A stretch of 35,322 nt of DNA from the NCBI GenBank assembly GCA_007695195.1, contig REEG01000131.1, positions 1-35,322 of the forward strand. Reading direction: 5' to 3'. Made by a program: the position numbers and the translations under genes. Of this stretch, positions 5,500 through 35,322 are shown piece after piece; position 1 is the first letter of the stretch, and each line of letters starts with the position of its first letter. The notes below the pieces were generated by a model. It was not told the DNA's origin and did no database searches. It was given only the letters and a program-made list of their open reading frames with translations. The stretch is from Gemmatimonadales bacterium. GTDB lineage: Bacteria; Gemmatimonadota; Gemmatimonadetes; Longimicrobiales; Gaopeijiaceae.

Positions 5500-6350
5500 C
5501 GGGCCGATCCCACAAAGAAGCTGAAGGTGAGGAAGCCCACCAGCGTCGCCATCCGGCGCCACCCGAAGGGCTCCCCATCCAACACATCCCGTCGGGTGGA
5601 GATGACCACGGCTCCACACTGCCGTGCCAGATCATCGGCGAACTCACCCGGGAGCTCGGACAGCCGCCGGTAGACCTCCACCGACTCCACCTCATTCAAC
5701 GACACCATGTCGTCCACGGACCCCCCGAAGAGGGGCGACCGGATCCCGTCCACATAGATGGACGGCTGACAATTGCGCTGGGGATTGAGAAACAATCCCG
5801 CCCCCCCGGCCCCCTGCCCCCCACCCCGGATCTGGACCCCGGGAACGCGGGCCAGGAGGTGCGTGATACGGCTGGCGCGGGATTCCTCGATGGCCTGGCG
5901 ATTGAAGTGGGTCCCGAGTCCGACCCGCTCCATCCACTCGATGCGGTCGCGACTCCCGGCCAGGGGTCCATCCCGCCGTCCGGACACCACGATGGGATCC
6001 AGGGGGATGGCGTCGACACTGAGTCGGACCACCAGCTCATAGAGCATCCCCTCGCCCACCACTTCCACCTCCACACCCCGCTCCTGGTAGGCGACGTGAC
6101 GGATGGAAAGCGCGTAGGTGCCCGGGGCGAGACCCTCGAAACGGAAGCGACCTTCGGCATCGGTGACCCGACTCACACCGGTGCCCGCCAGGAGTACCGT
6201 AGCCGAGGCGATGGGCTCCCCGGATCCGGCGTCCACCACTGTCCCCACGATGCGAGACCCATCCGGGCCGGCCTGCTGGGCCACAAGCGGCGGCGCGTGG
6301 AACACGAAAGCGGCCAGGAGACCGAGGATCGCTGCGCCGACGCGGGACAT
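5496..6350 (-). CDS. Carboxypeptidase-regulatory plus TonB-plug protein without a barrel
   Basis: A 284-aa exported protein with signal peptide to PLVAQQ. A CarboxypepD_reg-like domain covers about residues 35-110 (VGTVVDAGSGEPIASATVLL ... VTDAEGRFRFEGLAPGTY). A TonB receptor plug-like domain follows, with ARVPGVQIRGGG, IYVDGIR and NEVESVEVYRR. The reading frame then ends instead of continuing into a barrel. The last residues (TLVGFLTFSFFVG) are hydrophobic and could anchor it. A strong GGAGGAG element precedes the ATG. The stop overlaps the start of a complete TonB receptor by 4 bp (ATGA), so the two are probably made together. The function is not known; an accessory or signalling partner is inference. 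Confidence 0.8.
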   Translation of the reverse strand: MSRVGAAILGLLAAFVFHAPPLVAQQAGPDGSRIVGTVVDAGSGEPIASATVLLAGTGVSRVTDAEGRFRFEGLAPGTYALSIRHVAYQERGVEVEVVGEGMLYELVVRLSVDAIPLDPIVVSGRRDGPLAGSRDRIEWMERVGLGTHFNRQAIEESRASRITHLLARVPGVQIRGGGQGAGGAGLFLNPQRNCQPSIYVDGIRSPLFGGSVDDMVSLNEVESVEVYRRLSELPGEFADDLARQCGAVVISTRRDVLDGEPFGWRRMATLVGFLTFSFFVGSAR

Positions 6351-12600: not shown

Positions 12601-12816
12601 CGCCGGCACGTTGGAGATGGTGTAGCGGCCCTCCCCACTGGTCACCACGCCGAAGCCGGTGCCCTCGAGGAACACCTGCGCTGCCGCCAGGGGCTGCCCG
12701 GTGTCGGCTGAGGTCACCTGACCCACGACCTCGCCACTCTGGGCGTGAGCTGGAAGCGCGAACACCAGGAGCAAGAATGCTCCCAGCGTCGCACGTGCGA
12801 ACGAACGACCGAACAT
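9697..12816 (-). CDS. SusC/RagA-family TonB-linked outer-membrane transporter (first pair)
   Basis: TonB-powered outer-membrane transporter that works with the downstream SusD protein. The 1039-aa product has a signal peptide ending ALPAHAQ. A CarboxypepD_reg-like domain follows at about residues 28-110 (GQVTSADTGQPLAAAQVFL, GEGRYTISNVPAGTY). The plug at about 115-240 carries LQEVVVTG, ALQGRVAGARV, PLIVVDGVI, DIESLEVVKGAAAASLYGARAQNGVI, which are SusC hallmarks. The barrel ends TLTLGITIDF. A GGAGGA element precedes the ATG at 12816. The susD gene follows by 35 bp. The leader (12817-12968) has no promoter I can name with confidence. Confidence 0.95.
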   Translation of the reverse strand: MFGRSFARATLGAFLLLVFALPAHAQSGEVVGQVTSADTGQPLAAAQVFLEGTGFGVVTSGEGRYTISNVPAGTYTVVVRLIGYADARRENIVVRPGEPTTIDLQLRSQALRLQEVVVTGVTDPTEGTRVPFTVARVSRDDLPVPSSNAVAALQGRVAGARVVSGGGQPGSGVSVRLRNRLSVNTGAAPLIVVDGVIQAASTVDIDPNDIESLEVVKGAAAASLYGARAQNGVIQIQTRRGRDVPLNATRITARSELGFGSIRQLPGVALAHQFLQNEQGQWVDMQGNVVDRQNRVIQPSRMMDQPYRTQTFDNFDRFFDAGRTSNTTVNLSRNMESTNFFFSAGDYRETGIVPDFNSGYERQNFRINLDHRIRDDLTLGLTSYYARSARDNLTPSPFFSLRFFPPDIDLNIRDEDGDFKIQPDPSMLENNPLYPLTAVDSWNWRSRTQGSAQLRYSPLSWLNFEGILSFDRSDRESATLYPKGYKTVNPGQLNDGQYTRSYAFDQSLNGTLQTSQIRTFGDLTARTRIRYNFERDDFESQQAQAREFRVFGLRSLNNGIQEFTSGSSNQVRSESLLGALGLDYGGRYIFDALIRQDGSSLFGPDDRWNTYYRVAAAWRMAEEDWWPFLGITEFKPRFSQGTAGARPGFSWRYETWSVGTAGPSKGQLGNRALRPELTTEREYGLDMIIQDRFSIELVYADTEVQDQLIPIPLPGVFGFSSQWQNAGVVDATAYEATFEAILVSQPEFSWRAGMVFDRTRSVLRDWPRSCYVTSVFYRCEGEDFGSMYGRSFMTSANDLQRHLGGRFADFADQFQVNDDGYLVPVGNANWTDGLSGGLWGTQVNVDGVNLPWGLPIVERDESGVFAQRQIGDANANFNLGFTNNFQWRGIQIYSLFDWKNGGDIYNETRQWPYRDNISPDQVQTGKPDERKKPIDYYEALYNTNSTNSHFVEDGSYVKLRELSVAYRFNQSQLQRFIGGLGMSGLSVELIGRNLLTFTNYSGDDPEVGSGGAGGVTENPFDSFGYPNFRTLTLGITIDF

Positions 12817-15566: not shown

Positions 15567-17018
15567 TCACAGCGGCCGGCAGGGGCTCGCCAGATCCCGG
15601 GCCGAGCACTCGTTGGCCGGGATGATCATGTTGGTGAAGACGTTGTCTCCCTCCCGGTCCCGAGGAAGGGTGTCCAACCGGTTGTACCGGCGGGCATCGA
15701 TCCAGCGGGTGCCCTGGGTCCACATGAGGGAGTAGAGCCGGTTGTACAGAAGCTCCGTCACGAAGGCGTCATCGGAGCTTCCGGCCGTCAGCCCCGACGG
15801 CTCCAGCCCGCCGGCGTACTCCCGGATCCGGTTCAGGTCGTCCACCGCTCCCTGCCGGTCCCCGTTGTTCCACCGGATCTCGGCCCGGAGCAGGAGAAGC
15901 TCCTCGTTGATGAGCCGCGGAATGGGAGCCCCCAGATTCGGTGACGCCGGATTCGCCGGATTGTTGAAGAGCGTCGGCTTGTGGGTGGCGAAGAGCCCGG
16001 CCAGGGAGTGCTCCCGTCCGGTGTCCGTCACCTTGGATGTGAGCCGCAGGTCCGGCGTCCCATCGGCGCGGAGCTGGGCTCCGCTGATGATGGACGGGTG
16101 CACCCAGAGCCGGTTGTTCACCAGAGGCTCGCTCACCGGGTTCGACGGCTCACCGGCCGCCGCGGAGAATCCGTAGTACGCACCGGTGGCCAGCGACTCG
16201 GGCAGCCCCCCGTCCGTGATGAACGACTGGTCCAACGCCGCAGCCGCCTGGGCCCAGCACGCGGTGCATCCCAGGAAGGTGGCCCGGTGCACCAGCACCT
16301 TGGCCGCCAACCCCCGGTTGAACTGGGCAAAGGCCGCCGGGTTTCCGAAGCCCCCGAAGCCCGGAGCCATGGTGAAGGGGAAGTTGTCGCCGCCGGCCAT
16401 GAGGTCCCCATAGGCCTCGTCCAGGAGGCTCGAGACGTGCTCCATGGCCGCCGAGAAGCTCACGAAGGGCGCCGGGTCGGCCGTGATGGGCCGGTCCACA
16501 TCGATGGGAATCCCCAGCTCCCCGGTCCGGATGGCCAGGTTGTGGAAGTTGGACGCCTTCATGGTCTTGGCGAAGCCCGCCGAGGCCCGGCGCTCCGCGT
16601 CGGACAGCCCCGTGGCCGTCTCCAGCGCCGCCAGGTACGTATTGATGGTCCGGATGGCCGAGAACTGGCCCACCCAGATGGCCGAGTTCCGCCCCGACGG
16701 ATCGGGCGGCCCCCGGAGCTGCTCCCCGGTCTCGCGGGGGTCGTTGCCCAGCAGGTTCCACCCCTCCCGCCCGTACAGGGCGTAGAACTGGATCCGGGTC
16801 CCCACATCGTTCAGGCTCTGGGCGAAGATGCCTGTGGCCGCCCGGGCCATGACGTCCCGGGTGGGCGACTCGGTGAGGGTCTCCACGGTGGGAGCGTTGG
16901 TGTTCACAATGTCCAGGTCGCCGCACGCCGTGAGCGCTGCCAGGCCCAGCGTCGCCAGCGTCAACGCGCCCCGGCGAAGGTTCGTCCCCCGCATGGGGGT
17001 TCGGTTCGTCTCATTCAT
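15567..17018 (-). CDS. SusD/RagB-family outer-membrane lipoprotein (second pair)
   Basis: Binding partner for the SusC protein immediately upstream. The product is 483 aa from ATG 17018, one base after the susC stop (TGACATG), so the pair is tightly coupled. The N-terminus MNETNRTPMRGTNLRRG leads into a hydrophobic segment and lipobox LTAC, followed by GDLDIVNTNAPTVETL, the usual SusD opening. Helical repeats (ASAGFAKTMKASNFHNLAIRTG, AKVLVHRATFLGC) follow. The C-terminal domain has LLLRAEIRWNNGDRQGAVDDLNRIRE and MWTQGTRWIDARR. Frame extension upstream is inside susC and not coding. It is a different paralogue from the first SusD, with little obvious residue-level similarity. Confidence 0.92.
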   Translation of the reverse strand: MNETNRTPMRGTNLRRGALTLATLGLAALTACGDLDIVNTNAPTVETLTESPTRDVMARAATGIFAQSLNDVGTRIQFYALYGREGWNLLGNDPRETGEQLRGPPDPSGRNSAIWVGQFSAIRTINTYLAALETATGLSDAERRASAGFAKTMKASNFHNLAIRTGELGIPIDVDRPITADPAPFVSFSAAMEHVSSLLDEAYGDLMAGGDNFPFTMAPGFGGFGNPAAFAQFNRGLAAKVLVHRATFLGCTACWAQAAAALDQSFITDGGLPESLATGAYYGFSAAAGEPSNPVSEPLVNNRLWVHPSIISGAQLRADGTPDLRLTSKVTDTGREHSLAGLFATHKPTLFNNPANPASPNLGAPIPRLINEELLLLRAEIRWNNGDRQGAVDDLNRIREYAGGLEPSGLTAGSSDDAFVTELLYNRLYSLMWTQGTRWIDARRYNRLDTLPRDREGDNVFTNMIIPANECSARDLASPCRPL

Positions 17019-17019
17019 G

Positions 17020-19986
17020 TCAGAACCCCACGGAGATGTTGAAGAAGAGGCTCCGGGACGGCGGGTAGGGCGCAATGTCCAGGTTGTTGCGCACCGCCGC
17101 CGCGCCGAAGTTGGCCACCTCGGGATCGAGGCCGCTGTAGCGGGTCCACATGAAGACGTTCCGCCCGGTGAGCCCCACCCGCAGGCTCCGGGTCCCCAGG
17201 CGAAGCGCATCCGTGTACTCCCGGGGAACCGCCACGTCCAGGGCCACCTCGCGCACCTTCACGAAGGAGGCGTCCTCGATGTAGGGGGTGATGATCCCTC
17301 GCACCCGCTGGTTGTCCCGCCGCTCCCACGTAGGCGTGCCGTGGTCATCGGAGGTCCGGCCCGCGTCGCGGAGGAACTGGGTCAGGTTGATGACGTTTCC
17401 GCCCTTCTGCCAGTCCGTCACCACGCTGAAGCTCATGGGCCCCCAGGTGAGATCGTTGATGAAGCCCATGCGGAAGTCCGGCGCGCTGTTTCCGAGCTGC
17501 ACCAGCGACGAGGTGATGTTGCCGTCCTCACCCTCGCCGAAGCCCACGATCTGGGTGATGGGGCGGCCCACCTCGATGCGGGTCCGGCCCAGGTTCCCGA
17601 AGCCCGAGGCCGCCGGGAAGAAGGGCGGCAGCCCCGCCAGGTCCAGCACCTCGCTGGTGTAGCGGGTGAAGGTGTTCCGGCTCACCCAGCGGAAGTCGCC
17701 ACGCAGGATGGGGGTGAAGCCCAGCGAGGCCTCGATCCCCTGATTCCGGATCTCGCCGCCGTTGAAGATCTCGGTGGTGAAGCCCGACGAGGGCGACGGA
17801 ACCCGCTGCAGGAGGAGGTTCGTGGTGTTCCGGGTGAAGCCGGTGAGCTCGAAGGTCATGCGTCCGGCCAGCGCCTCGCCGTCGATGCCCGCCTCCCACT
17901 CCTGCAACCGCTCCGGCTCCACATCGGGGAAGCCGGCGGTGGTGGAGACGGTAATGCCCTGCTGGCCACCGATCTGGGGTGTGCCCAGATTGGTGAACTT
18001 CTGCCCGAAGAGGGGCTGGTTCCCGGTCTCTCCGTAGGCGACCCGGAGCTTCAGCTCGCTCCCGTCCCCGATGAGGCCCGGGAACCGGTACGACGCCGAC
18101 GCCTTGGGGAAGACGAAGAAGCGGTCGATGTCGCCGTTCACGCTGCTCCGCTCGGCCCGGAGTCCGGCCAGCACCAGGAGCCGGTCGTCCATGAGGAAGA
18201 GGGCTTCCTGGGCGTAGAGGGCGATGGTCCGCTCGGCGGTGAGGTTCTCCACCGCTGTGATGGCCGTCCCCTGGTTCACATTCCGCTCACCGGGGAGGAG
18301 GTTCTGGCTCCGGATCCGGAAGGTGTGGAGGCTCCGGTCCTCGTACTGGATCCCGAAGGAGGTGGAGGCGGTGAAGCCGTCGCGCACCCACTCGTGGATG
18401 GCGTTGGCGTTCCAGTTGACGAAGAGGCTGCGTCCTCCGGCCTCGAGGGACTCACCCGGAAGCGACTTCACCTGCTCGAAGAAGAGCTCGTTGGGACTCC
18501 ATACGTCGTTGCGCTGATCGAAGGCGTCCACGCCCACGCCGGCCACGAAGCGGAGCCGCTGCTCCCCGCCGTCCATGGCCTGCCACGACAGGTTGGCGCC
18601 GCCGGTGAAGCGGTTCGTCTCTTCGTGGTTCACCCCCAGCTCGGTGAGCTGAATGGGATTGGACTGGACCCCTACCGTGGGCCGGGGGAAGGAACCGTCC
18701 GGGTTCCGGGCCTCCAGATTCACGAAGCTGGGGATGTAGGCGATGGCGTAGCCATGGCACCCGAAGTTGTTGCAGTTGTTGTTCCACCCCCGGTCGTTCT
18801 CGTTCCGGGCGTACGCCGCCGACACGCTGATGTCGAGGCCCGGGCGCAGGTCCTGATCCAGGTTCATGCGGAGGCTCTGCTGGGTGGCGAAGGTGCCCCG
18901 TTCGGTGCCTTCATCGTGCTTCCACTGGCCGGACACGAAGTACCGGGTGGACTCGGTTCCACCCGAGACGCTGGCCAGCGTCTCGTGGGAGAGGCCCCGA
19001 TTGTCGTAGACGGCGCCGTAATGGTCGAAGTACGGATTCGGGTTGCCGTCGAAGAAGGGGGCGGCAGCATTTCCGAACTGGGCCACCGCCTCTTCCCGGG
19101 TCCAGCGCCGCGTCTCCAGGAGTCGAAGCGGCGACGAGACACCGAACCGCTGCGTCACATTTATCACAGGCTCACCGGCCCGTCCCCGATTCGTGGTGAT
19201 GACCACCACGCCGTTGGAGGCCTTGGAGCCATAGATGGACGATGCCGCCGCGCCCTTCAGGATCTCGATGCTCTCGATGTCCGCCGGGTTCAGGTCGGCG
19301 ATACGGTTCACCGCGTCGGCCTCCAGCGCCGGGCTCGCCGCGTTGTTGGCGAAGCCCCGGGGACTGGGGATGGACGCGTTGGAGAAGATGACCCCGTCCA
19401 CCACGATGAGGGGGTCGAATCCGCCCAGGAGGGTGCTGTTCCCCCGCACCTGCATCTGGATCCCGCCGCCGGGAGCTCCGGAGTTGGTCTGGAGGTTCAC
19501 TCCGGTGACCCGGCCCTGGAGCGAGTTCATCACCGAGGGTGAGGAGACCCGGCCCAGATCCTCGCCGGACACGTAGGCAATGGAGGTGGTGGCGTTCCGC
19601 CGATCCACGGCGGTGGCCTGCCCCGTTACCACCAGTTCGCCGAGGCGGAACATGTCCGGGCTCAGCGCCACATCGATGACGGACTGATCGGCCGGCACCG
19701 TGACCTCGGTGGCCGCGTAGCCGAAGGCCGAGACCTGGAGCCGGACCTCACCGGTAGGGGCCTGGAGCCGGAACCGGCCCGCCTCAACGGAAAGAACCGA
19801 CGTACCTGCCACCGGTGCGATGACCCGGACCTCGGCGCCCACCAGGGGCTGCCCCGACTCGGCCCGGGTCACCTGGCCGGTGATCTCCCGCTGCTGGGCG
19901 TCCAGCCCGGCGGGGAGAATGAATGGGGCGAGAAGCAGGCCCGCCAGAAGGCCGCCTCCCGCCCACGCACGAAGGACACTACGCAT
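17020..19986 (-). CDS. SusC/RagA-family TonB-linked outer-membrane transporter (second pair)
   Basis: TonB-dependent transporter of 988 aa paired with the following SusD. The signal peptide ends PAGLDAQ. The CarboxypepD_reg-like domain runs from about residue 34 (ITGQVTRAESGQPLVGAEVRV). The plug has LGELVVTGQATAVDRR, SLQGRVTGVNLQTNSGAPGGG, PLIVVDGVIF and DIESIEILKGAAASSIYGSKASNGVVVITT. The C-terminus SLFFNISVGF is a typical barrel end. A strong GAGGAGG element lies 5 bases before the ATG. The gene is divergent from the S9 peptidase gene across 410 bp. Confidence 0.95.
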   Translation of the reverse strand: MRSVLRAWAGGGLLAGLLLAPFILPAGLDAQQREITGQVTRAESGQPLVGAEVRVIAPVAGTSVLSVEAGRFRLQAPTGEVRLQVSAFGYAATEVTVPADQSVIDVALSPDMFRLGELVVTGQATAVDRRNATTSIAYVSGEDLGRVSSPSVMNSLQGRVTGVNLQTNSGAPGGGIQMQVRGNSTLLGGFDPLIVVDGVIFSNASIPSPRGFANNAASPALEADAVNRIADLNPADIESIEILKGAAASSIYGSKASNGVVVITTNRGRAGEPVINVTQRFGVSSPLRLLETRRWTREEAVAQFGNAAAPFFDGNPNPYFDHYGAVYDNRGLSHETLASVSGGTESTRYFVSGQWKHDEGTERGTFATQQSLRMNLDQDLRPGLDISVSAAYARNENDRGWNNNCNNFGCHGYAIAYIPSFVNLEARNPDGSFPRPTVGVQSNPIQLTELGVNHEETNRFTGGANLSWQAMDGGEQRLRFVAGVGVDAFDQRNDVWSPNELFFEQVKSLPGESLEAGGRSLFVNWNANAIHEWVRDGFTASTSFGIQYEDRSLHTFRIRSQNLLPGERNVNQGTAITAVENLTAERTIALYAQEALFLMDDRLLVLAGLRAERSSVNGDIDRFFVFPKASASYRFPGLIGDGSELKLRVAYGETGNQPLFGQKFTNLGTPQIGGQQGITVSTTAGFPDVEPERLQEWEAGIDGEALAGRMTFELTGFTRNTTNLLLQRVPSPSSGFTTEIFNGGEIRNQGIEASLGFTPILRGDFRWVSRNTFTRYTSEVLDLAGLPPFFPAASGFGNLGRTRIEVGRPITQIVGFGEGEDGNITSSLVQLGNSAPDFRMGFINDLTWGPMSFSVVTDWQKGGNVINLTQFLRDAGRTSDDHGTPTWERRDNQRVRGIITPYIEDASFVKVREVALDVAVPREYTDALRLGTRSLRVGLTGRNVFMWTRYSGLDPEVANFGAAAVRNNLDIAPYPPSRSLFFNISVGF

Positions 19987-20396: not shown

Positions 20397-22790
20397 ATGG
20401 ATCGACCGCTCTCGTCCCTCTGCGAAGCTGCGACCCGGTCTCGCCGGATCCGTCGTTCTCGTCCCCCCCGTTTCCGTCCTGGAACCACGCGAGGATCCGC
20501 ACTCCTGTCCCTGGGCTTGGGGATGGCGCTATCCATGACCGTGGTGGCCCCGGCGCCGGCTGTGGCCCAGCAGTCCGCCGAGGACGGCCTGCGCCCCATG
20601 ACGTTCCTCGATGTGCAACATCTCCGCTCGTGGGGATCGCCCGCCCCGAGCCCCGACGGTCGGTACATCCTGCACACCGTCACGAAGCCGGATTGGGAAG
20701 AAGACCGGGCCCAGACCGACCTGTACCTGGTTCCCGTGGCCCAGGGAGCCGAAGGTGCCCGGCGGCTGACCTTCACCGAGGAACATGACGAGACCTCGCC
20801 GGCCTGGGGACCGGACGGGAGCTTCTTCGTCTTCCTCTCGAACCGGGAGGGGTCCAACGGGAATCAGCTCTTCCTCATGAGGACGGACGGCGGTGAGGCC
20901 CAGCGGCTCACCAATCTCTCCAACGGCATCTCCAACTACGCCTTCAGCCCGGAAGGCGACTGGTTGGTGTTCCGCAGCGGCCCCTCAGGCAAACAGCAGC
21001 TCCACCGCCTTCCGGTCCACACCGAAGCGGGACGGAGCTGGATCGAACCCGATTCCCACGAGGCTGTGACCACCCATGAGGCGGGCGTCCTTTCGTGGGA
21101 GTGGGCGCCGGACGGGCGGCACATCTACTTCATCGGGCCCGATGAGGTGGACAAGCTGAACGAACAGCGGCGGCAGAACGGCTTTTCGGTGAACATCCAG
21201 AACCAGGAGACACCCCTGGCCTCTCTCCACGTGGTGGAGGCCACCACGGGCGAGTCCCGTCGCGTGGCCGGCGACCCGGCCTACACCGTGTCCAGCTTCA
21301 GCATCTCGCCGGACGGGCAGTGGGTGGGATACTCGGGCATCTCGTCTGAGCGCTACCACCGGAACATCACCGAGCAGGGGCTCCACGCCGACCTCTACCT
21401 CCTGGAGACGGCCTCCGGCGACATCGAGCGCCTCACCGTTTCCCACGAGACGGGGCTGGGTGGCCCCTTCTTCTCGCCGGACGGGCGCTGGATCGCCTTC
21501 TCGGCGCCGGAGGACATCAGCCGCTACTCCATGGCCAACCGGCGGCTGCATGTTCGGGAAGTGGCGGACCGGGGTGGGGATTGGCGAATCCTGGGCACCG
21601 GATTCGACGGGCATGTGGGGGTCTCGTTCTGGTCCGACGACAGCCGCACCGTCTACTTCAACGAGGGGATCCGCGCCACCCGGCAGCTCGTGGCGCTGGA
21701 CATCGAGAGCGACGAAGTCCGGCAAGTGACCACCGAGGACGCGGCCCTGGCGGTCTCCCGGGACGACGACACGGGGATGCTCCTCATCACCTACCAGGAC
21801 CCCCGGACCCCTTCCACCCTCTTCACGGCGCCCTCCACCGAGACGCTGGGGAACCGCTCGGCGTGGACCCAGCTCACTGATGTGAACCCCCAGGTGCGTG
21901 AGTTCGCCCTGGGCGAGGCACAGGAGATCACCTGGACCTCCAGCGACGGGGTTGAGGTGGGCGGGGTGCTCACCCTGCCGGTGGGGTACGAGCCCGGGCA
22001 ACGGGTTCCCCTCATCGTGGCCATCCACGGTGGGCCCGCCTCCGCCGACGTCCTGAGCTTCAACGGCGGCTACGGCGCCCAGATCTACGCCGGCGACGGC
22101 TACGCGGTGCTCAAGCCCAACTACCGCGGCTCCACCAATTACGGCGAGGCCTTCCGCACCGGGATCGTGGGCAACTACTTCCCGCCGGGGTACGAGGACA
22201 TCATGACCGGGGTGGACCACCTCATCGCCGAGGGGATCGTGGATGGGGACCGGATGGGCTCTCTGGGATGGAGCGCCGGTGGTCACTGGTCCAACTGGAT
22301 CCTGGTGAACACCGACCGGTTCAGCGCCATCAGCTCCGGCGCCGGCACCATGAACTGGATCTCCATGTACGCCCAGAGCGACGTACAGCGGAACCGCCAG
22401 TACTACCTGGGCAACGAGCTTCCCTACTTCGACTTCGACGCCTACTGGGATCAGTCGCCCCTCAAGTACATGGCCAACGCCTCCACCCCCACCATGATCC
22501 ATGTGGTGGAGGGCGATCCGCGGGTCCCCAGCGCCCAGTCGCTGGAGCTCCACATGGGCCTCCGCCAGTTGGGGGTGCCCACTGAGCTCTTCCTCTACCC
22601 GGGGCAGACCCACGGCATCACCCAGCGCCGCAACCGGCTCCTCAAGTCGGTGAGCGAGAAGGCCTGGATGGACTACTACGTCCGGGGAATCGGCGAGGGC
22701 TTCCAGTGGGAGCAGGTGCTCTCGACCCTGGAGTCGTGGGAGGCCCCGGCTGAATCCCCCGCCGCCGAGGATGGGGCGGACGGACTCTGA
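20397..22790 (+). CDS. Exported S9-family serine peptidase (DPP4/prolyl oligopeptidase-like)
   Basis: Cleaves oligopeptides, probably in the periplasm. The 797-aa product starts at ATG 20397, with AGGAG 6 bases upstream, and carries a long basic n-region and a signal peptide ending PAVAQQ. The first ~500 residues form a beta-propeller built of PD40/WD40-like blades (PAPSPDGRYILHTV, FSPEGDWLVFRS, SISPDGQWVGYS, FFSPDGRWIAFS). The alpha/beta-hydrolase domain has the catalytic triad visible: Ser626 in GWSAGG, Asp707 in EGDPRVP and His739 in GQTHG. The divergent SusCD operon next door suggests peptides as imported substrate; that link is inferred. A flavoprotein gene follows by 20 bp. Confidence 0.93.
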   Translation: MDRPLSSLCEAATRSRRIRRSRPPRFRPGTTRGSALLSLGLGMALSMTVVAPAPAVAQQSAEDGLRPMTFLDVQHLRSWGSPAPSPDGRYILHTVTKPDWEEDRAQTDLYLVPVAQGAEGARRLTFTEEHDETSPAWGPDGSFFVFLSNREGSNGNQLFLMRTDGGEAQRLTNLSNGISNYAFSPEGDWLVFRSGPSGKQQLHRLPVHTEAGRSWIEPDSHEAVTTHEAGVLSWEWAPDGRHIYFIGPDEVDKLNEQRRQNGFSVNIQNQETPLASLHVVEATTGESRRVAGDPAYTVSSFSISPDGQWVGYSGISSERYHRNITEQGLHADLYLLETASGDIERLTVSHETGLGGPFFSPDGRWIAFSAPEDISRYSMANRRLHVREVADRGGDWRILGTGFDGHVGVSFWSDDSRTVYFNEGIRATRQLVALDIESDEVRQVTTEDAALAVSRDDDTGMLLITYQDPRTPSTLFTAPSTETLGNRSAWTQLTDVNPQVREFALGEAQEITWTSSDGVEVGGVLTLPVGYEPGQRVPLIVAIHGGPASADVLSFNGGYGAQIYAGDGYAVLKPNYRGSTNYGEAFRTGIVGNYFPPGYEDIMTGVDHLIAEGIVDGDRMGSLGWSAGGHWSNWILVNTDRFSAISSGAGTMNWISMYAQSDVQRNRQYYLGNELPYFDFDAYWDQSPLKYMANASTPTMIHVVEGDPRVPSAQSLELHMGLRQLGVPTELFLYPGQTHGITQRRNRLLKSVSEKAWMDYYVRGIGEGFQWEQVLSTLESWEAPAESPAAEDGADGL

Positions 22791-22812
22791 CGTGGCGGAC
22801 GGACTCTGACGT
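22775..22812 (+). repeat. Perfect 19-bp tandem duplication across a stop/start junction
   Basis: The unit GGCGGACGGACTCTGACGT occurs twice back to back (22775-22793 and 22794-22812). The first copy contains the TGA of the peptidase gene. The second places an identical TGA just before the GTG of the flavoprotein gene. With one copy removed, the stop and the GTG would be one base apart, so a recent slippage duplication is likely to have separated them. Confidence 0.9.
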
Positions 22813-24073
22813 GGAAGGTGTACCTCAGGACATCCTGGTGGTGGGGGCGGGGGCCGCCGGCCTCATGGCGGCCATCTTCGCCGGTCGGGCCGCCCCCGCC
22901 GCCAGGATCCTGGTGGTGGAACGAAGCCGGGATGGGGGCCGGAAGATCCTCATCAGCGGCGGAGGCCGGTGCAACGTCCTTCCGTCCCGTCTGGACCCGG
23001 CCCACTACGTCACCGCCTCGTCGCCCAATACCCTCCGGAAGCTCCTGCTCTCGTGGCCCCTCCCTGAGCAGCGGGCGTTCTTTGAGGAGGACTTGGGCAT
23101 TCCCCTTGCGCTGGAGGCCGAGACCGGGAAGCTCTTTCCGGTTTCGAACCGGGCCCGGGATGTGCGCGACGCCCTGGTGGACGCCGCACGGAGAGCCGGC
23201 GCCCGGTTCCTCTTCCAGCGCTCCGTGGAAGGACTGGAGGCGGTGGAAGGGGGTTGGCACGTCACCCTGGACGGGGGTGAGTCGGTCCAGGCCCGGCGGG
23301 TGATCCTGGCCAGCGGGGGACTCTCCGTTCCCGCCACCGGGAGCGACGGAACGGGACTTCGCCTGGTGGAGTCGCTGGGCCACACCCTCCACCCCACCTA
23401 TCCGGCCCTGACTCCCCTCCTGGCCGACCCACCGGTACACGGGCACCTGGCCGGTGTCTCCCTTCCCGTTACCCTCCACGTGCCCGGTGTGCGGGGGCGG
23501 GCCGGCGAGGGACGTCCTGAGGCGGAGGGTGGGTTCCTGTTCACCCATCGTGGCTACTCGGGGCCCGCCGTCCTCAACGTCTCCCACTTCGCGGTGCAGG
23601 CCCGGGACCGGAACACGGAGCAGCCTGTGACGGTGGCGTGGACCGGAGAAGACGCATCGGTCTGGGACACCCGGCTGCAGGAAGAGGGCTCAGGCCCCGT
23701 CACCGCCCTCCTCCGTCGTCATCTTCCGCAGCGGCTGGCCGACCACCTCATGGCCGAGGCCGGAGTCCCCCTGGACCGGTCCCTGGCGCGCCTTCGACGG
23801 GATGAACGCCTGCGCCTGGTGGAGGCCCTCTCGGCCCTTCCCCTCCCCTGGACCGGCGACGAGGGGTACAAGAAGGCCGAGGTCACGGGGGGCGGTGTGG
23901 CCCTCTCCGAGGTGAACCCCCGGACCATGGAGAGCCGTCTGTGCCCGGGCCTCCACCTCTGCGGGGAGATCCTGGACGCCTTCGGCCCCATCGGGGGGTA
24001 CAACTTCGCCTGGGCGTGGGCTACGGGCCGGGCGGCCGGACGGAGCGCAGGCACCACTGCGGCAGTCGACTAG
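22811..24073 (+). CDS. HI0933/BaiN-family NAD(P)/FAD-dependent oxidoreductase
   Basis: A 420-aa cytoplasmic flavoprotein. The N-terminal FAD-binding motif is VVGAGAAG (residues 10-17), followed by GGRKILISGGGRCN (42-55), the signature of this family. Further motifs include FPVSNRARDV, RRVILASGGLSVPATGSDG, and the C-terminal LHLCGEILDAFGPIGGYNFAWAWATG that closes the FAD site. The start is GTG 22811, because the Rossmann motif begins only a few residues later; the ribosome-binding site is poor, so coupling to the upstream peptidase is likely. The true substrate of most members is unknown; the BaiN bile-acid role should not be assumed. The TAG stop touches the left 67-bp repeat. Confidence 0.88.
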   Translation: MEGVPQDILVVGAGAAGLMAAIFAGRAAPAARILVVERSRDGGRKILISGGGRCNVLPSRLDPAHYVTASSPNTLRKLLLSWPLPEQRAFFEEDLGIPLALEAETGKLFPVSNRARDVRDALVDAARRAGARFLFQRSVEGLEAVEGGWHVTLDGGESVQARRVILASGGLSVPATGSDGTGLRLVESLGHTLHPTYPALTPLLADPPVHGHLAGVSLPVTLHVPGVRGRAGEGRPEAEGGFLFTHRGYSGPAVLNVSHFAVQARDRNTEQPVTVAWTGEDASVWDTRLQEEGSGPVTALLRRHLPQRLADHLMAEAGVPLDRSLARLRRDERLRLVEALSALPLPWTGDEGYKKAEVTGGGVALSEVNPRTMESRLCPGLHLCGEILDAFGPIGGYNFAWAWATGRAAGRSAGTTAAVD

Positions 24074-28761: not shown

Positions 28762-29388
28762 ATGTCCGATCAGGACCAGATCGACCACTACGAAGTGTTG
28801 CAGGTGAGCCCTCGGGCCGACGGGGAAACCATCGAGCGGGTGTTCAGGCATCTGGCCAAGCGTCTCCACCCCGATAACACCCGGTCCGGGGACGTGGAGC
28901 GGTTCTCCCAGCTTGTGGCTTCGTACCGGGTCCTGTCGGATCCCGAGACACGGGCCCGCTACGATGCCGGGTACGACGACCTGCGGCGCCGGTCCTGGCA
29001 GCTCTTCGACCAGTCCGCCGCCACGTCGCGGGTCGAAGCCGACCGTCGCATCCGGCTCGGGATCCTCACCCTCCTCTACCAGGCAAGACGCCGGGATGTG
29101 GACCGTCCAGGCGTGGGAGAGCTCGAACTGGAGCGGATCCTGGACTGCCCTCCCGAGGTGCTCCGCTTCCATCTCTGGTACATGAAGGAGAGCGGGTGGC
29201 TGAACCGTCTGGATACAGGCCTCCTGGCCATCAGCCACCATGGGGTGAACCGCCTCCACGAAGAGGAGATCCCGTGGGAGAAGGGAGTCCACCGCCTGAA
29301 CCCCGCTCCCATCACCACGCCGCCCCGCCGGGAACGGGCAGACAACGGAGGCGACCCCGCCGGGAGCGCCGATTCCACCGAACGCTGA
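28762..29388 (+). CDS. J-domain (DnaJ-like) protein with a C-terminal winged-helix-like region
   Basis: A 208-aa cytosolic protein. The N-terminal J domain (residues 8-70: DHYEVLQVSPRADGETIERVFRHLAKRLHPDNT) has an intact HPD motif at 36-38, needed to stimulate a DnaK ATPase. The Gly/Phe and zinc-finger regions of true DnaJ are absent. Residues about 95-165 (RIRLGILTLLYQARRR ... CPPEVLRFHLWYMKESGWLNRL ... LAISHHGVNRLHEE) look like a winged helix, as in type III J-proteins that recruit DnaK to one client. A strong AAGGAAGG precedes the ATG. It converges on the SDR gene with only 2 bp between stops. Confidence 0.88.
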   Translation: MSDQDQIDHYEVLQVSPRADGETIERVFRHLAKRLHPDNTRSGDVERFSQLVASYRVLSDPETRARYDAGYDDLRRRSWQLFDQSAATSRVEADRRIRLGILTLLYQARRRDVDRPGVGELELERILDCPPEVLRFHLWYMKESGWLNRLDTGLLAISHHGVNRLHEEEIPWEKGVHRLNPAPITTPPRRERADNGGDPAGSADSTER

Positions 29389-29390
29389 GC

Positions 29391-30329
29391 CTACCCACCC
29401 CCTCCGGTCACCCGGTTCAGGATGCGCTCCGTCTCGTCCCATAGCTGCCGTGCAAGCACGGGGTCACGTCCGTGGGCCGAGGACTCGGCCGGATTGCAGT
29501 CGGCGAAGTAGGCCCCACTGATCTCCGCCGCCTCCGGATGCACGGCCACATAGCACTGGGTGGCGGCGCCCTGGGGCACGCTCTTCAACAGGAGAGGGCT
29601 GAAGGCAGCGAACAACCCTGCCGCGAAAGGGTTCAGGTGCCGGGCCAACCCGGTCTTGATGACCCCGGGATGCACGGCGTTCACCGTTTTTCCCGTGCCC
29701 TCCAGGCGGCGAGCCAACTCCCTAGCGTACAGGAGGTTCGCCAACTTGGACTGGCCGTAGAACTTCCAGGCATCGTAGCCCCGGGAACCGTCCAGATTCT
29801 GGAAATCGATGCCGCCCTTGGGCGTTCGCTGATGGGCCGTGCTGCTCAGCACCACGACCCTGGCTTCGTCGGAGAGAAGCCCCATGAGCCGGTCGGTGAG
29901 CAGAGCGTGCCCGATGTGGTTGGTGAAGAACTGCAGTTCGAGCCCGTGAGTGGTCTGTACCTTGGGCAGCGCCATGATGCCGGCGTTCAACATGAGCACG
30001 TCGATGGGTCGCCCCACCCCGGTCAGGGTGCGGGCGCAGGCCTCTACCGACTCGGGATCGGAGAGCTCGCATGCCACCGGGGTGGCCTGGTCCCGGGCTC
30101 CCACCTCGGCGGCCGCCCGCTCGGCCTTCTCCACGGTCCGGGCGGCGGCGATGATGTGAGCGCCCCGGGCAGCCAGGACCCGAAACGACTCCTGTCCAAT
30201 CCCTGAGTTGCACCCGGTGATGAGGATGGTCCGCCCGGAGAGATCCAGTCCGCGGGTCACGTCCTCGGCGGTGGATCCGTACCCGAAGCCGTTGGGGCCC
30301 GGGCGCTTCAGCTTGGCTACCAGTGACAT
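29391..30329 (-). CDS. Short-chain dehydrogenase/reductase (retinol dehydrogenase-like)
   Basis: NAD(P)-dependent oxidoreductase of 312 aa; substrate unknown. The Rossmann motif is TGCNSGIG (residues 38-45), with LNAGIMALP as the NAG motif. The catalytic Ser is in VVLSSTAHQ and the Tyr/Lys pair in YGQSKLANLL. The motif VHPGVIKTGLARHL and overall pattern resemble the retinol dehydrogenase/WW-domain oxidoreductase branch of the superfamily. ATG 30329 is chosen because GGGAG lies upstream and the protein then begins a few residues before the domain; the open frame further up overlaps the divergent receptor leader. Cytosolic. Confidence 0.92.
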   Translation of the reverse strand: MSLVAKLKRPGPNGFGYGSTAEDVTRGLDLSGRTILITGCNSGIGQESFRVLAARGAHIIAAARTVEKAERAAAEVGARDQATPVACELSDPESVEACARTLTGVGRPIDVLMLNAGIMALPKVQTTHGLELQFFTNHIGHALLTDRLMGLLSDEARVVVLSSTAHQRTPKGGIDFQNLDGSRGYDAWKFYGQSKLANLLYARELARRLEGTGKTVNAVHPGVIKTGLARHLNPFAAGLFAAFSPLLLKSVPQGAATQCYVAVHPEAAEISGAYFADCNPAESSAHGRDPVLARQLWDETERILNRVTGGGG

Positions 30330-30379
30330 GTCCGTTCGTACTCCCGTCCATCGGTGTGGGACTGGCCTTGGCGGTGATG

Positions 30380-30385
30380 TATAAT
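30380..30385 (+). promoter_or_regulatory. TATAAT -10-like element upstream of the BtuB-like receptor gene
   Basis: A perfect TATAAT lies 192 bp before the receptor ATG in an otherwise GC-rich divergent region. No convincing -35 sits 16-18 bp upstream. If used, the transcript would have a leader of about 185 nt that includes a direct 11-bp repeat (30442-30463) and a hairpin (30471-30496). Confidence 0.3.
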
Positions 30386-30441
30386 GGGCTGTGCCCGAAT
30401 CGGTGATTCTGGAAAACCACTCGCATGAGGCACCGAACAAC

Positions 30442-30463
30442 CGGGTGTCCATCGGGTGTCCAT
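30442..30463 (+). repeat. 11-bp tandem repeat in the receptor leader
   Basis: CGGGTGTCCAT occurs twice in tandem (30442-30452 and 30453-30463), upstream of the BtuB-like receptor gene. It could be an operator half-site pair or simple slippage; nothing further can be said from sequence. Confidence 0.6.
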
Positions 30464-30470
30464 GGGTCGT

Positions 30471-30496
30471 GGGAAGGTGCCCTGAAGGCTCTTCCC
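30471..30496 (+). other. Hairpin in the leader of the BtuB-like receptor gene
   Basis: GGGAAG pairs with CTTCCC, and inside it GCC pairs with GGC around the loop CTGAA. The structure lies about 80 nt before the receptor ATG. It lacks the conserved boxes of the cobalamin riboswitch, so I list it only as a candidate leader structure. Confidence 0.3.
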
Positions 30497-30576
30497 ATGG
30501 ACCCGTCTGCGCCCTCTGCGTTCCCTTACGCCGTCGCCGCACCTGCATCCTGCCACTCGTTCCCCACGCCTCGGCC

Positions 30577-32502
30577 ATGAACGCCATGATCCCTTTTCGG
30601 CTCCTATCCGCAGGCATCCGACGTCATCCGGTGACGGCGAACCCACTGCCGGCGAGCCTACTGCTCCTGGCCACGGGCCTCCTGATCCCGGCCATGGCGC
30701 CGGCTGTGGCCCAGACCCCGGCGGACTCCGTCCCCACCTTCCAGGGTGACACGCTCCATGTGGGCGACACGCTCCATGTGGGCGACACGCTCCATGTGGT
30801 GGGCACGCGGGTCAGCGCCGACCTCCCCGAGCGGACCCGTGCCGTCCAGATCCTGCACCGGGCCGAGTTGGAGCGGTCTCCGGCCCGCAATGCGGTGGAA
30901 CTTCTGAGCTGGGTCACCGGCGCCGATCTGGGAGCCAGGTCCCGGGCCCAGGCGGACCTCTCCCTTCGGGGCGCCGGCTTTGAGCAGACGCTGATCCTGG
31001 TGGACGGGGTCCGGATGAACGATCCCCAGACCGGCCATTTCAACCTGGATCTGGCCCTTCCCCTGGACGAGGTGGAGCGAATCGAGATCCTGCGGGGACC
31101 GGCCTCGTCCCTCTACGGAAGCGACGCCGTGGGGGGGGTGGTGAACCTGGTGACCCGTGGGGGCCCGGGGTGGAGTGTGCGGGGCGAAGGGGGCTCCTTC
31201 GGATCGGCAACGGTGGGTGGGGGCGGATCTGTGGAGCTGCCGGGTGCGGCCCGGCTCCGTCTGAGCGGAGAGTGGGACCGCACCGATGGCCACCGGCCGG
31301 GAACCGATGCCGAGTCCCGATTGGGGCAGGCCAACCTCCGGATGCCCCTGGGGGGAGGTGAGCTGCGAGCCCAGGCCGGCGTGGGAGACCGGGCCTTCGG
31401 CGCCCGGGACTTCTACGCCGTCTTCGATTCCTTCGAGGAGACCCGCACCACGACCCTGGGCGTGGGATGGCGTTCCGACCCCACCCGGCGCCTTATGGTG
31501 GAGCCCCGCGTGGACTGGCGGCGCCACGGCGACGACTTCCTCCTGGAGCGGGACAACCCGGCGGGATTCCGGAACGTCCATACCTCGGAGCGGCACGGTG
31601 GCGAACTCACCCTCCGGACCCGGGCCCATCCGCGCATGGGCATCGCCTGGGGTGGCGGCGCCTGGCGTGAAACCCTCTCCAGCACCGGTCTGGGCGAGCG
31701 GGAAGAAGGGCGCCAGGCCCTCTTCGCCGAGGCGGACATCACGCTACCGGGAGCCGTCCGCACCGCGCTGGGGCTCCGACTGGATCGCCACGACCTCTGG
31801 GGCACTGCGGTCTCGCCGTCGGTGGCCGCCGGATGGGAGGTGCGACCGGGACTCCGGTTCCGCGCCGCCCTGGCCGACGCCTTCCGCGGTCCCACCTGGA
31901 CCGAAAGGCACTACACCGACCCGGCCCACCGCGCCCGCCCCGACCTGGATCCCGAGCGGTCCCGCTCGGTGGAGGCCGGGGTGCGACTGGAATCGGCCAT
32001 GGGGACCCACGTGGACCTCACCCTCTTCCGCCGGAGCAGCCGCGACCTCATCGATTGGGCCCGCCCACTCAACGACCCCTCGGCCCTCTGGGAAACCCGG
32101 AATCTCACCCGGGCCGTCTTCCGGGGCGCCGAAGTGGATGCCGCCTGGACACCTGCCGACGGAACGACGCTCCGGGTGGGGGCGACGCTCCTCTCCCTGG
32201 ATGCCGTGGCGCCTGGAGACCTCCTCTCCAAGTACGCCCTACGACCCCTCACGGAGCAGTTCACCGTGGCGCTGGACCAGCGAGTAGGCGGGCGCCTGGG
32301 CCTGTCCCTCCGCGGGATTCACGGCCGACGCCCGGGGGAGAGGGACTGGCGGGAAGTGGACCTGCGCCTGGAAGCCCCCCTGGCCGGGGCCCGCTGGCAC
32401 CTGGATCTCCGGAACCTCCTGGGGTCGGACCACCCGGACCTCACCGGAAACGCCGTACCCGGTCGGGCAGTGTACCTGGGGGTCCGCTTCGCCGGGGGCT
32501 GA
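30577..32502 (+). CDS. TonB-dependent receptor, BtuB-like, with triplicated TonB-box-like motif
   Basis: Outer-membrane TonB-dependent transporter of 641 aa, the length of vitamin B12/siderophore-type receptors. ATG 30577 leads to a signal peptide (SLLLLATGLLIPAMAPAVAQ); ATG 30586 is an alternative, and neither has a clear ribosome-binding site. After the signal, GDTLHV is repeated three times and runs into VVGTR, aligning with the BtuB TonB box (DTLVVTANR). The plug follows: LLSWVTGADLGARSRAQADLSLRG, TLILVDGVRMNDPQTG, EVERIEILRGPASSLYGSDAVGGVVNLVTR. The 22-strand-type barrel ends AVYLGVRFAGG. Cobalamin as substrate is a guess from similarity. It converges on the next gene with a 1-bp gap. 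Confidence 0.9.
   Translation: MNAMIPFRLLSAGIRRHPVTANPLPASLLLLATGLLIPAMAPAVAQTPADSVPTFQGDTLHVGDTLHVGDTLHVVGTRVSADLPERTRAVQILHRAELERSPARNAVELLSWVTGADLGARSRAQADLSLRGAGFEQTLILVDGVRMNDPQTGHFNLDLALPLDEVERIEILRGPASSLYGSDAVGGVVNLVTRGGPGWSVRGEGGSFGSATVGGGGSVELPGAARLRLSGEWDRTDGHRPGTDAESRLGQANLRMPLGGGELRAQAGVGDRAFGARDFYAVFDSFEETRTTTLGVGWRSDPTRRLMVEPRVDWRRHGDDFLLERDNPAGFRNVHTSERHGGELTLRTRAHPRMGIAWGGGAWRETLSSTGLGEREEGRQALFAEADITLPGAVRTALGLRLDRHDLWGTAVSPSVAAGWEVRPGLRFRAALADAFRGPTWTERHYTDPAHRARPDLDPERSRSVEAGVRLESAMGTHVDLTLFRRSSRDLIDWARPLNDPSALWETRNLTRAVFRGAEVDAAWTPADGTTLRVGATLLSLDAVAPGDLLSKYALRPLTEQFTVALDQRVGGRLGLSLRGIHGRRPGERDWREVDLRLEAPLAGARWHLDLRNLLGSDHPDLTGNAVPGRAVYLGVRFAGG
30745..30798 (+). repeat. 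Three 18-bp in-frame repeats encoding GDTLHV
   Basis: Copies at 30745-30762, 30763-30780 and 30781-30798 differ at a single base (GGT against GGC for the first Gly). Because the unit is 18 bp the frame is kept and the protein gains two extra copies of a TonB-box-like hexapeptide. Near-identity suggests a recent expansion. Confidence 0.9.
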
Positions 32503-32503
32503 C

Positions 32504-35322
32504 TCAGCGATCCGATTCAGCGCGGGAGGCAGCCAGGGCGCGCATACGCTGCAGGCGGATGGCGGTCCGTAGCTCTTCATTGGTTCGCTCCACCGCCAGG
32601 GGAATCCCCAGGGGACCGTCCTGAAGGCTCACCCGCTCGGCCAGGAGCCCACCCATGCGCTCCGCCCGTTCCCGTGGCGCCTCTTCCAGCCAGACCACCC
32701 GGAGTGCACTTCCGCCCTGGGCTACGGCCCCGCAGAGCCCCGCTCGGTCCAGGAGGCCGTCGGACCCGGTGAGGAGTTCCCGGAGTTCGTCGTCCCGCTC
32801 CAGTGCCCCGGGAAGTCCCAGTGCCACCGCAGCGGAGAGGACCGCCCGCGTCAGGGAGAGGCCGTCCAGCGCCGAGCGGATCCGTACGGCAGACTCCAGA
32901 TCGGCGCCGTCGAGCCCGGCCAGACCGGTGGCGGCGGCTCCGTCGTCCATGCAAACGGCTCCGAATACCCGTGTGAGGGAAACGGACTCATACCGGCGGA
33001 GTTCGTCGGCAATGGCCCGGTCCAGCTCTGCCCGCAGTCCGCCCCGAGGGGACGCCAGGCTCCACCCCTCCACCCCTCGAGCGGCCTGGGGCCAGAGGGT
33101 CCGCAGCAGGGTCCCGTGGGGGTCGGGCTCCTCCATCCGGACCTCCCGGACGCTCCCGCTGTCTTCTCCGCCACCCATGGTCTCCAGCCGCCGAACGAAG
33201 GGGGGAAGCTCGACCCGGTGGGTCCAGACCGAACGACCCTCGTCCAATCGGAGTTCCACCTCCACGACGCCATGGGCCATGGTCCGACGGTCGTGGCGCT
33301 TCCAGAAGATGAAGCGGCGGCGGAAGTTCTCCCGATTCACTTCATACGTAATCGAGGTCCGGAAAACGAGCTCCGGCTCTTCCAACGCCAGCACCGCCGC
33401 CGTGCGGACTTCCGGTGGGATGGTGTTCCTGAGCCACTCGGGCACCTCGAGGGGTTGCCGACCCTCCGCGTGTGGATCCCGTCCGGCGCCGGATCCTCCC
33501 CGGTGATCTGAATGAATCCGGTTCAGAAGAGAAGCCGGATCGACCCGCCGAAGCTGAGCCTGCCGGTGCCGTGTGGCGAGGCGGTCCGCTTCGGCTACCA
33601 GAGCATCCAGCTCTCGCCGATATTCCGCCAGGACCGGCCCCAGCACCCCCATCTCCGTCCCTTCCCCGGTGCCCTGCCCGGCCATCGCGCCCGGACCGGC
33701 CCCCGCACCCTGTCCCGATGTCCGGCGGCCGGTGACGGCCTTCAGCACCCCTTCCACCTCGGTGCCCACCGCCAGGAGTGCTTCCAGATCCCCCGGCGCC
33801 ACACCCTGGGCGTGCTCGGGCCAGGCATCCAGCATGGTCAGATAGGCGTCGGCGGCCAGCCGCCACTCCAGGGGATTCGCCACCCCCCTTCCCCGGTCCA
33901 GGGCGCCGTACCCATAGAGGTCGACCCCGACCCTGGCCAGGAGCGGGAGCCGATGCGCCAGATTCTCGGACGACAGATCCCGGAAGGCCTCGCGAACCGC
34001 TTCGTCACTCACCGGAGTGGTGCGATCCGCCAGCAGGGCGTCCCGGGCATCCCGCTCTCCGCGGACCCGGAACTCGGTGAGGCACCCGGCGAAGGTACCG
34101 AAATCCATCCGGTCGAAGGGAGGAAGGTGCCGACTGCGGTGCTCCAGGCATCGAACCAGTGTCCGGGCATGATCCCGATCGAACCCGGCCTGCATGTAGG
34201 CGGCGAGGGTGGCCTCACTCCGGGCGAGACGCTCTTCCAGTCCTTCCAGCGACCGGCGCACCTCCATCAACTCGCTCTGGACCTCCCGGTGCGATGACTC
34301 CACCAACCGCTCCAGCCGGGCCATCCCATCATCCACCGTATCCAGGAGGGCATCCAGACGCAGTTCCACGAGACCGTGACGCTCTTCCAGATCGGCCCGG
34401 AGTTCGTCCACGGCATCCCGGAGCGCCCGGACATCGCCGGCAGCACCCATCCCCACCCCCCCCGGGGTCATCTCGAAGAAGGAGGCGACACTCGCCGCCA
34501 CCCCCACCACATTCCCCGAAAGGAGCGAGACCGCCGCGTCCCGCCCGAAGTCCCGGACGTTTCGGCCGAACAGCCGGCCCTCCAGGCGGAGATCGGCGGC
34601 AGCCTCACCAAACATCTGGAGCCGGCGGGCCGCCCCCTCCTCCAGGCCTGAGAGGAGGGCCGAGCGGGAGGCGAGGTAGGCCAGGGACCGCTCCTCGGCC
34701 CACGCCAGGCGGCCCCGGATCCCGTCCTCCACATCGTCGAATCCCGACTGGACTCGATCCCCGGTGGAGGCCAACCCGGAAAGGATCTGCCGGTACTGGG
34801 CCACCACTGCCTCTCCGTCGTCCACCAGACCCCGCCCCCCGGCCTGAGCCAACTCCCGGAACTCGGCCACGGCCGGGTGCCCCCAGGTGAGGTCGGCCAG
34901 CCCCGGGAGCGAGCCCCGCCGGTGGGACGCATCCTCCAGGACCCCTTCCGCGTAACGCTGAAGAGGTCCCAGAAGCTGCCCGCCCTCGCCGGCTTCGATC
35001 CGCCCCGCCTCCCGGTACAGGACCAGGAGCCGATTCGCCTCTTCGGTCAACTCAAGCCCCGCCCTTGCCGGAAGCCGAGGCACCAGCAGTTCGAGGGAGC
35101 AGAGTGTGGCATCCACCGGCGATGCCTCATCCCGACAGCGATGAAGCCCCGGCGGCAGCACGGCGTCGTCGCCGGTGGCCAGCGAACGGAGCACCGCATC
35201 CAGAAGCTCCGGCGTGGCGGTGGGTGGCCCCTCCCCTACCTGCGGAAGCCCTTCGAGGCGGGTCCAGGCGGCCAGGGCCAGGAGTCCGGGCACATCACCC
35301 CGGCCCAGGACCTGACCCAGGA
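32504..35322 (-). CDS. Large unrecognised protein with hydrophobic segment and coiled coil, 5' end outside window
   Basis: The frame is open to the right edge, so the start is missing; at least 939 codons are present. I do not recognise a family. Counting from GTG 35293, residues 1-250 are mostly helical. Residues 252-273 form a hydrophobic stretch (VSLLSGNVVGVAASVASFF), and about 286-366 form a strong heptad-rich coiled coil (LVELRLDALLDTVDDGMARL). A Gly/Ala/Gln-rich linker lies near 530-555 (about 33650-33730). The C-terminal third is mixed alpha/beta (TSITYEVNRENFRRRFIFWK). Six cysteines occur, two near each end and two in the middle, which might form disulfides. Location and function are unknown. 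Confidence 0.7.
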   Translation of the reverse strand, partial: LGQVLGRGDVPGLLALAAWTRLEGLPQVGEGPPTATPELLDAVLRSLATGDDAVLPPGLHRCRDEASPVDATLCSLELLVPRLPARAGLELTEEANRLLVLYREAGRIEAGEGGQLLGPLQRYAEGVLEDASHRRGSLPGLADLTWGHPAVAEFRELAQAGGRGLVDDGEAVVAQYRQILSGLASTGDRVQSGFDDVEDGIRGRLAWAEERSLAYLASRSALLSGLEEGAARRLQMFGEAAADLRLEGRLFGRNVRDFGRDAAVSLLSGNVVGVAASVASFFEMTPGGVGMGAAGDVRALRDAVDELRADLEERHGLVELRLDALLDTVDDGMARLERLVESSHREVQSELMEVRRSLEGLEERLARSEATLAAYMQAGFDRDHARTLVRCLEHRSRHLPPFDRMDFGTFAGCLTEFRVRGERDARDALLADRTTPVSDEAVREAFRDLSSENLAHRLPLLARVGVDLYGYGALDRGRGVANPLEWRLAADAYLTMLDAWPEHAQGVAPGDLEALLAVGTEVEGVLKAVTGRRTSGQGAGAGPGAMAGQGTGEGTEMGVLGPVLAEYRRELDALVAEADRLATRHRQAQLRRVDPASLLNRIHSDHRGGSGAGRDPHAEGRQPLEVPEWLRNTIPPEVRTAAVLALEEPELVFRTSITYEVNRENFRRRFIFWKRHDRRTMAHGVVEVELRLDEGRSVWTHRVELPPFVRRLETMGGGEDSGSVREVRMEEPDPHGTLLRTLWPQAARGVEGWSLASPRGGLRAELDRAIADELRRYESVSLTRVFGAVCMDDGAAATGLAGLDGADLESAVRIRSALDGLSLTRAVLSAAVALGLPGALERDDELRELLTGSDGLLDRAGLCGAVAQGGSALRVVWLEEAPRERAERMGGLLAERVSLQDGPLGIPLAVERTNEELRTAIRLQRMRALAASRAESDR

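Follow-up and report, generated by a model that had tools for sequence, protein, structure and literature searches.

A Gemmatimonadota TonB-dependent receptor, probably for cobalamin, with a TonB box that looks recently tripled

The window, which is the whole stretch of DNA analysed here, comprises 35,322 nucleotides of a Gemmatimonadales genome (contig REEG01000131.1). Towards its end it carries a gene for a TonB-dependent receptor with the following features (coordinates are those of the window).

30577–32502, + strand: TonB-dependent receptor gene, 641 amino acids, predicted cobalamin type (open reading frame, Pfam, structural model)
30577–30711, + strand: predicted signal peptide, cleavage AVA/Q between residues 45 and 46 (placed by eye; a similar AxA/Q-like site in relatives)
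30712–30744, + strand: short tether QTPADSVPTFQ, probably disordered (sequence; low model confidence)
30745–30762, + strand: unit 1, GDTLHV, extra TonB box (sequence, TRF)
30763–30780, + strand: unit 2, GDTLHV, extra TonB box (sequence, TRF)
30781–30798, + strand: unit 3, GDTLHV running into VGTR, canonical TonB box (aligns with the single box of orthologs)
30835–31140, + strand: Plug domain PF07715, residues 87–188 (83.5 bits, cut-off 23.9)
31360–32214, + strand: β-barrel match PF00593, residues 262–546 (92.6 bits, cut-off 27; barrel also in the model)

The receptor frame opens with an ATG at 30577 (an alternative ATG lies at 30586) and closes with the stop codon at 32500–32502 on the + strand; a longer frame with a GTG start at 30391 is not needed for the receptor. 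The gene is flanked by an SDR gene and by a 929-residue frame on the − strand (32507–35293), which is open to the window edge and has no Pfam or NCBIfam match. Three more frames in the window, all on the − strand, combine Plug and CarboxypepD_reg matches (5499–6350, 9700–12816 and 17023–19986), the last of which adjoins a weak SusD match at 15570–17210 that falls below the cut-off. Repeats are also present elsewhere in the window. A prolyl-oligopeptidase-like gene has at its end a perfect tandem duplication of 19 bp (22775–22814), a period that is not a multiple of three, and at 1532–1599 a 21-bp unit, to which no gene is assigned, occurs in 3.2 copies that match at 87%.

The protein has the architecture of a TonB-dependent receptor: PF07715 and PF00593 both match above their cut-offs, and AlphaFold, run on the mature protein with 39 sequences, gives a model with a mean pLDDT of 88.2 that contains a plug and a barrel, the latter taken from its fold to be of the 22-strand type. 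Signal peptide, TonB box and plug follow one another in that order, as judged from the sequence and the alignment of relatives, with the cleavage site placed by eye. Mature residues 1–27 have pLDDT values below 50, and most of the remainder is well folded. The boxes begin at mature residues 13, 19 and 25, and are therefore predicted to lie on a loose tail next to the plug.

Directly after the predicted signal peptide and its short tether, an 18-bp unit encoding GDTLHV is present in frame three times (30745–30798), so that the N-terminus reads ...PAMAPAVA/QTPADSVPTFQ-GDTLHV-GDTLHV-GDTLHV-VGTRVSADLPERTRAV... TRF reports a period of 18, 3.1 copies, 97% matches and a score of 105. The units vary at a single codon, the first, which is GGT in unit 1 and GGC in the others; the 15 bases that encode the box do not differ between the units. 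Arrays of 2.9 or more copies that match at 90% or better number only three, this one among them, in 324 kb of the genome (the window and 20 further stretches). An assembly error is an unlikely source of the 56-bp array.

A sequence-only reading of the window had proposed a tandem triplication of GDTLHV, which the reading frame and TRF both confirm, and had taken the repeated unit for a TonB box that expanded recently and in frame. The identification as a TonB box stands: the unit lies in frame after the signal peptide, and unit 3, proximal to the plug, aligns with the conserved xLDT[LIV]xVxxSR that orthologs have shortly after the signal peptide and immediately before the plug. By this alignment the third copy is the TonB box of the relatives, to which copies 1 and 2 have been added on the N-terminal side. 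The identity of the three boxes at the DNA level likewise agrees with a recent expansion, and the change from one box to three looks to have come about through in-frame tandem duplication of 18 bp. The objection that the repeats might be removed with the signal peptide fails, because the array lies behind the predicted AVA/Q site, placed by eye as noted above.

Copy number was compared among relatives, as the same reading had suggested, by counting strict DT[LIV]x[VIL] matches within 50 residues ahead of the plug. Among 45 Gemmatimonadota orthologs, one (the window receptor) has three boxes, seven have two, 27 have one and ten have no strict match, one of these ten being truncated and the others having variant boxes. 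In one of the seven two-box receptors (G002) a third, weaker copy, DTIAP, is present. Beyond the phylum, 56 relatives were counted in the same way, and none has two boxes. The 121 genomes of the family, one per species, were all searched and yielded no new close relative. All eight multi-box receptors fall within one clade of 16 on the tree, where box number undergoes five changes of state, a count that does not tell gain from loss. The window gene has the longest end branch of this clade, and its place there is not fixed by the tree.

Box copies in relatives differ at 3–7 of 15 bases with the motif mostly kept; the spacing between copies is six residues in three lineages, five in one and seven in one, and tail length differs widely among orthologs. 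The sister receptors L017 and L132 illustrate this pattern: their tails read QAPGQAASQAR-DTVLVL and QGTGPA-DTIVVL, so that the extra box is kept and the other letters and the length of the tail have changed. A second sister pair, L011 and L012, has a common DTLTL on very different tails.

The number of extra boxes was compared with that in shuffled tails. Of the 16 tails in the clade, 15 are readable and eight of these contain an extra box (L013, truncated ahead of the plug, was excluded from tail counts). Shuffled tails with an extra box average 0.12, and none of 20,000 shuffles reaches eight, although this null takes no account of duplication, by which a motif is copied intact. A box lies no more than 40 residues from the cleavage site in 13 of 138 genes with a signal-peptide-like start (804 kb), and 11 of the 13 are this receptor; the sample favours this receptor, since 20 of the 60 loci are centred on it. 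Three of the 138 genes have two boxes, and all three are receptors of the window type. Retention of the extra box in sister pairs amid turnover of the tail is a better hint of selection than the shuffling.

Serial boxes are not confined to this receptor family. A loose tandem DT..DT pattern matches in 192 of 394 genomes of the class. This pattern by itself fails as a marker of TonB boxes, since in the 30 loci that were read it fell either out of frame or in proteins, Ig-like ones among them, that have no TonB box. Among 18 near genomes the loose pattern finds 18 places distributed over 17 genes, one being out of frame, with eight instances of this receptor, two of other Plug proteins and six of unrelated proteins. 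A stricter pattern that demands a following R gives 38 places in 36 of the 394 genomes, against one in the reversed control, and the surroundings of all 38 were read. Twelve of the 38 are tandem boxes directly before a plug: eight orthologs of the window receptor, G138, G048, G046 and G341. G138, from another receptor family, has QQSR-DTVRL-DTLVVTATR directly before its plug, and G048, G046 and G341 have DTVPVAL-DTLAVRVLR in the same position (pattern DTVPVALDTLAV); among doubles in other families, Pfam scans covered G138 and G048. Besides a match in G013 (contig C248), the other 25 places are in other proteins or in proteins without a domain test.

A second receptor of the window genome, from another family (L220, G000:C257, about 3256–3287, − strand), has DTLAVGDTVILD ahead of its plug, with a box stretch that reads DTLAVG-DTVILD ahead of PVEVTVLR. 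This receptor and those of G048, G046 and G341 form what looks like one family. The match in G013:C248 (L221) consists of DT[IL] repeats at a clear distance before a weak match to the Plug domain. Outer-membrane-type proteins of G356 (L290) and G211 (L286) have several DT[IL] repeats and look similar to it. Runs of DTV or DTM also occur in non-receptor proteins of the class (L280 in G325, L311 in G051 and others), which makes pairs of DT a poor marker of TonB boxes.

The cargo of the window receptor is likely to be cobalamin, as suggested by the fold of the model, which is best matched by BtuB, and by gene order in relatives, in which the gene lies between meaB and mutase. Compared with solved structures, the model has Escherichia coli BtuB at rank 1 in Foldseek, and the first 11 rows of VIA-align are all E. 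coli BtuB (Z 37.6–39.4); ChuA (36.5) and Cir (36.4) come close behind, so that the margin is small. The proposal that the receptor is BtuB-like thus holds for the fold and for the operon of relatives. It does not extend to the curated NCBIfam equivalogs, the cut-offs of which are missed by far (TIGR01779, 151.7 against 599.7 bits; NF007926, 99.8 against 836 bits). No cobalamin riboswitch was found at 29000–32600 of the window at E values up to 1, where only a sub-threshold chance match appeared, or in ten loci of relatives, or in ten loci of relatives from other phyla, one of which has a molybdenum riboswitch instead. This molybdenum/tungsten riboswitch, which scores 72 bits against a cut-off of 36, is at L073:8392–8511, just downstream of a distant receptor relative in the MAG CS1-C068.

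Methylmalonyl-CoA mutase requires B12, and MeaB is the GTPase of this mutase. In 20 loci of relatives, with neighbours identified from one scanned representative per neighbour family, B12-dependent methylmalonyl-CoA mutase follows the receptor in 11 and MeaB precedes it in seven; in one locus (L161) the receptor is absent from the called genes and was located by its coordinates. The resulting order, meaB–receptor–mutase, points to a likely cobalamin receptor of Gemmatimonadota. In the genome of the window, meaB (C83:2486–3694) and the mutase gene (C83:594–2318) are adjacent, with a gap of only about 120 bases between them (L267, G000:C83:594–3694). The only close copy of the receptor in this genome is the window gene, and none of its neighbours is common to the relatives' loci examined. 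Because meaB and mutase adjoin without a receptor and the only close copy is at the window locus, gene order indicates that the receptor has left the operon and moved from the slot between meaB and mutase to its present place.

We propose that the window gene encodes a BtuB-type receptor, probably for cobalamin, with a recently tripled TonB box, in which the upstream copies would be extra docking sites for TonB and the inner copy would transmit the pull, a reading that we hold with about even confidence. The three boxes would be displayed on a disordered periplasmic tail. The copy proximal to the plug, placed at the usual distance from it, would pair with TonB and pass the pull to the plug, as the single box of relatives does. 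The two outer copies would be further docking sites, raising the odds that TonB is captured and, after release, recaptured; a pull through an outer box would first take up slack of six or 12 residues. Binding of the BtuB box peptide to TonB is weak, with a Kd of 9.4 µM (PMC5413942), and several adjacent boxes should therefore raise the chance of capture. Box starts are only six residues apart, an estimated 2 nm or so of extended chain, and the tail is therefore likelier to hold a single TonB than two at once. About 50 Plug matches stand against three TonB_C matches in this genome, which makes competition among receptors for TonB plausible. Such competition was reportedly described by Kadner and Heller in 1995. 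Against capture by extra boxes stand the sufficiency of a single box in most orthologs, the five switches in box number across the tree, the spacing of five, six or seven residues and the frequency of DT pairs elsewhere in the class. A more ambitious version, in which serial boxes form a selected multivalent tail, is improbable in our judgement. Several TonB proteins or repeated strokes would then act on one receptor, copy number would tune the force and frequency of the pull on the plug, and slippage would be a quick evolutionary dial for access to TonB where dozens of receptors face few TonB proteins.

A serious rival is neutral slippage, to which we assign a substantial chance, if one short of even. 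The stretch before the functional box would be free and carry no load, so that copied boxes are tolerated, drift, are lost and remain idle throughout. This fits the window copy well, given that its DNA-identical copies may be too recent for selection to have acted on them, and it sits comfortably with the predominance of single-boxed orthologs, the repeated changes of state and the variable spacing. It fits the relatives less well: their diverged copies retain DT[LIV]x[VIL] while the tail around them turns over, and no duplication that leaves out the box was recognized in these tails on inspection by eye. Arrays comparable to that of the window are also rare in the genome, at three in 324 kb, and the other exported proteins sampled have no doubles near the signal peptide.

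Alternatively, each copy might be read in its own register by a different TonB protein, much as HasB binds HasR on a stretch upstream of that read by TonB (PMC3602595). Of the three TonB_C matches in this genome, one is in a classical TonB and another in a protein of 376 amino acids; the third (C235, 145 amino acids), however, reads as lipoprotein-like and not as a Ton energizer. A division of labour among paralogs is further disfavoured because the copies are identical and could be told apart solely by their distance from the plug, and we regard it as very unlikely. Less probable still is that the repeats merely lengthen the tail and that their sequence is irrelevant. Tail lengths of orthologs do vary widely, but additions on the N-terminal side leave the linker between box and plug unchanged in length, and diverged relatives retain the box motif, which a mere spacer would not require.

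Whether the extra boxes capture TonB, as we propose, bears on the open question of how TonB locates and pulls a single receptor when many are present. Nature provides the same scaffold with one, two or three boxes, which allows the effect of box number to be separated from the binding of cargo and the mechanics of the plug. Should the extra boxes prove advantageous, access to TonB would be limiting and open to evolution; if they give no advantage, the stretch before the box would be shown to be unconstrained. The literature searched holds no description of serial TonB boxes in one receptor, a weak absence since subscription journals lay mostly outside its scope, and it yielded nothing on a receptor with a mutase in Gemmatimonadetes.

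Known systems offer partial likenesses. E. coli BtuB has the same fold of plug and barrel and a DTL-type box directly before the plug, followed by a conserved R. It differs from the window receptor in having a single box, PDTLVVTANR (PMC5413942), in an identity of only about 20% and in the missed BtuB cut-offs. In Serratia HasR, which works with TonB and HasB, one tail likewise offers more than one register readable by a TonB-type domain (PMC3602595); there the registers overlap and serve different partners, whereas the window receptor repeats whole boxes in tandem. TonB-dependent colicins also use more than one TonB box per transport event (PMC8546555), but there the second box is on the imported protein, and in the window receptor the extra boxes are on the receptor itself. 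Judged by its sequence against these systems, the window receptor is of ordinary architecture, with its docking peptide multiplied in a way that is uncommon but recurrent.
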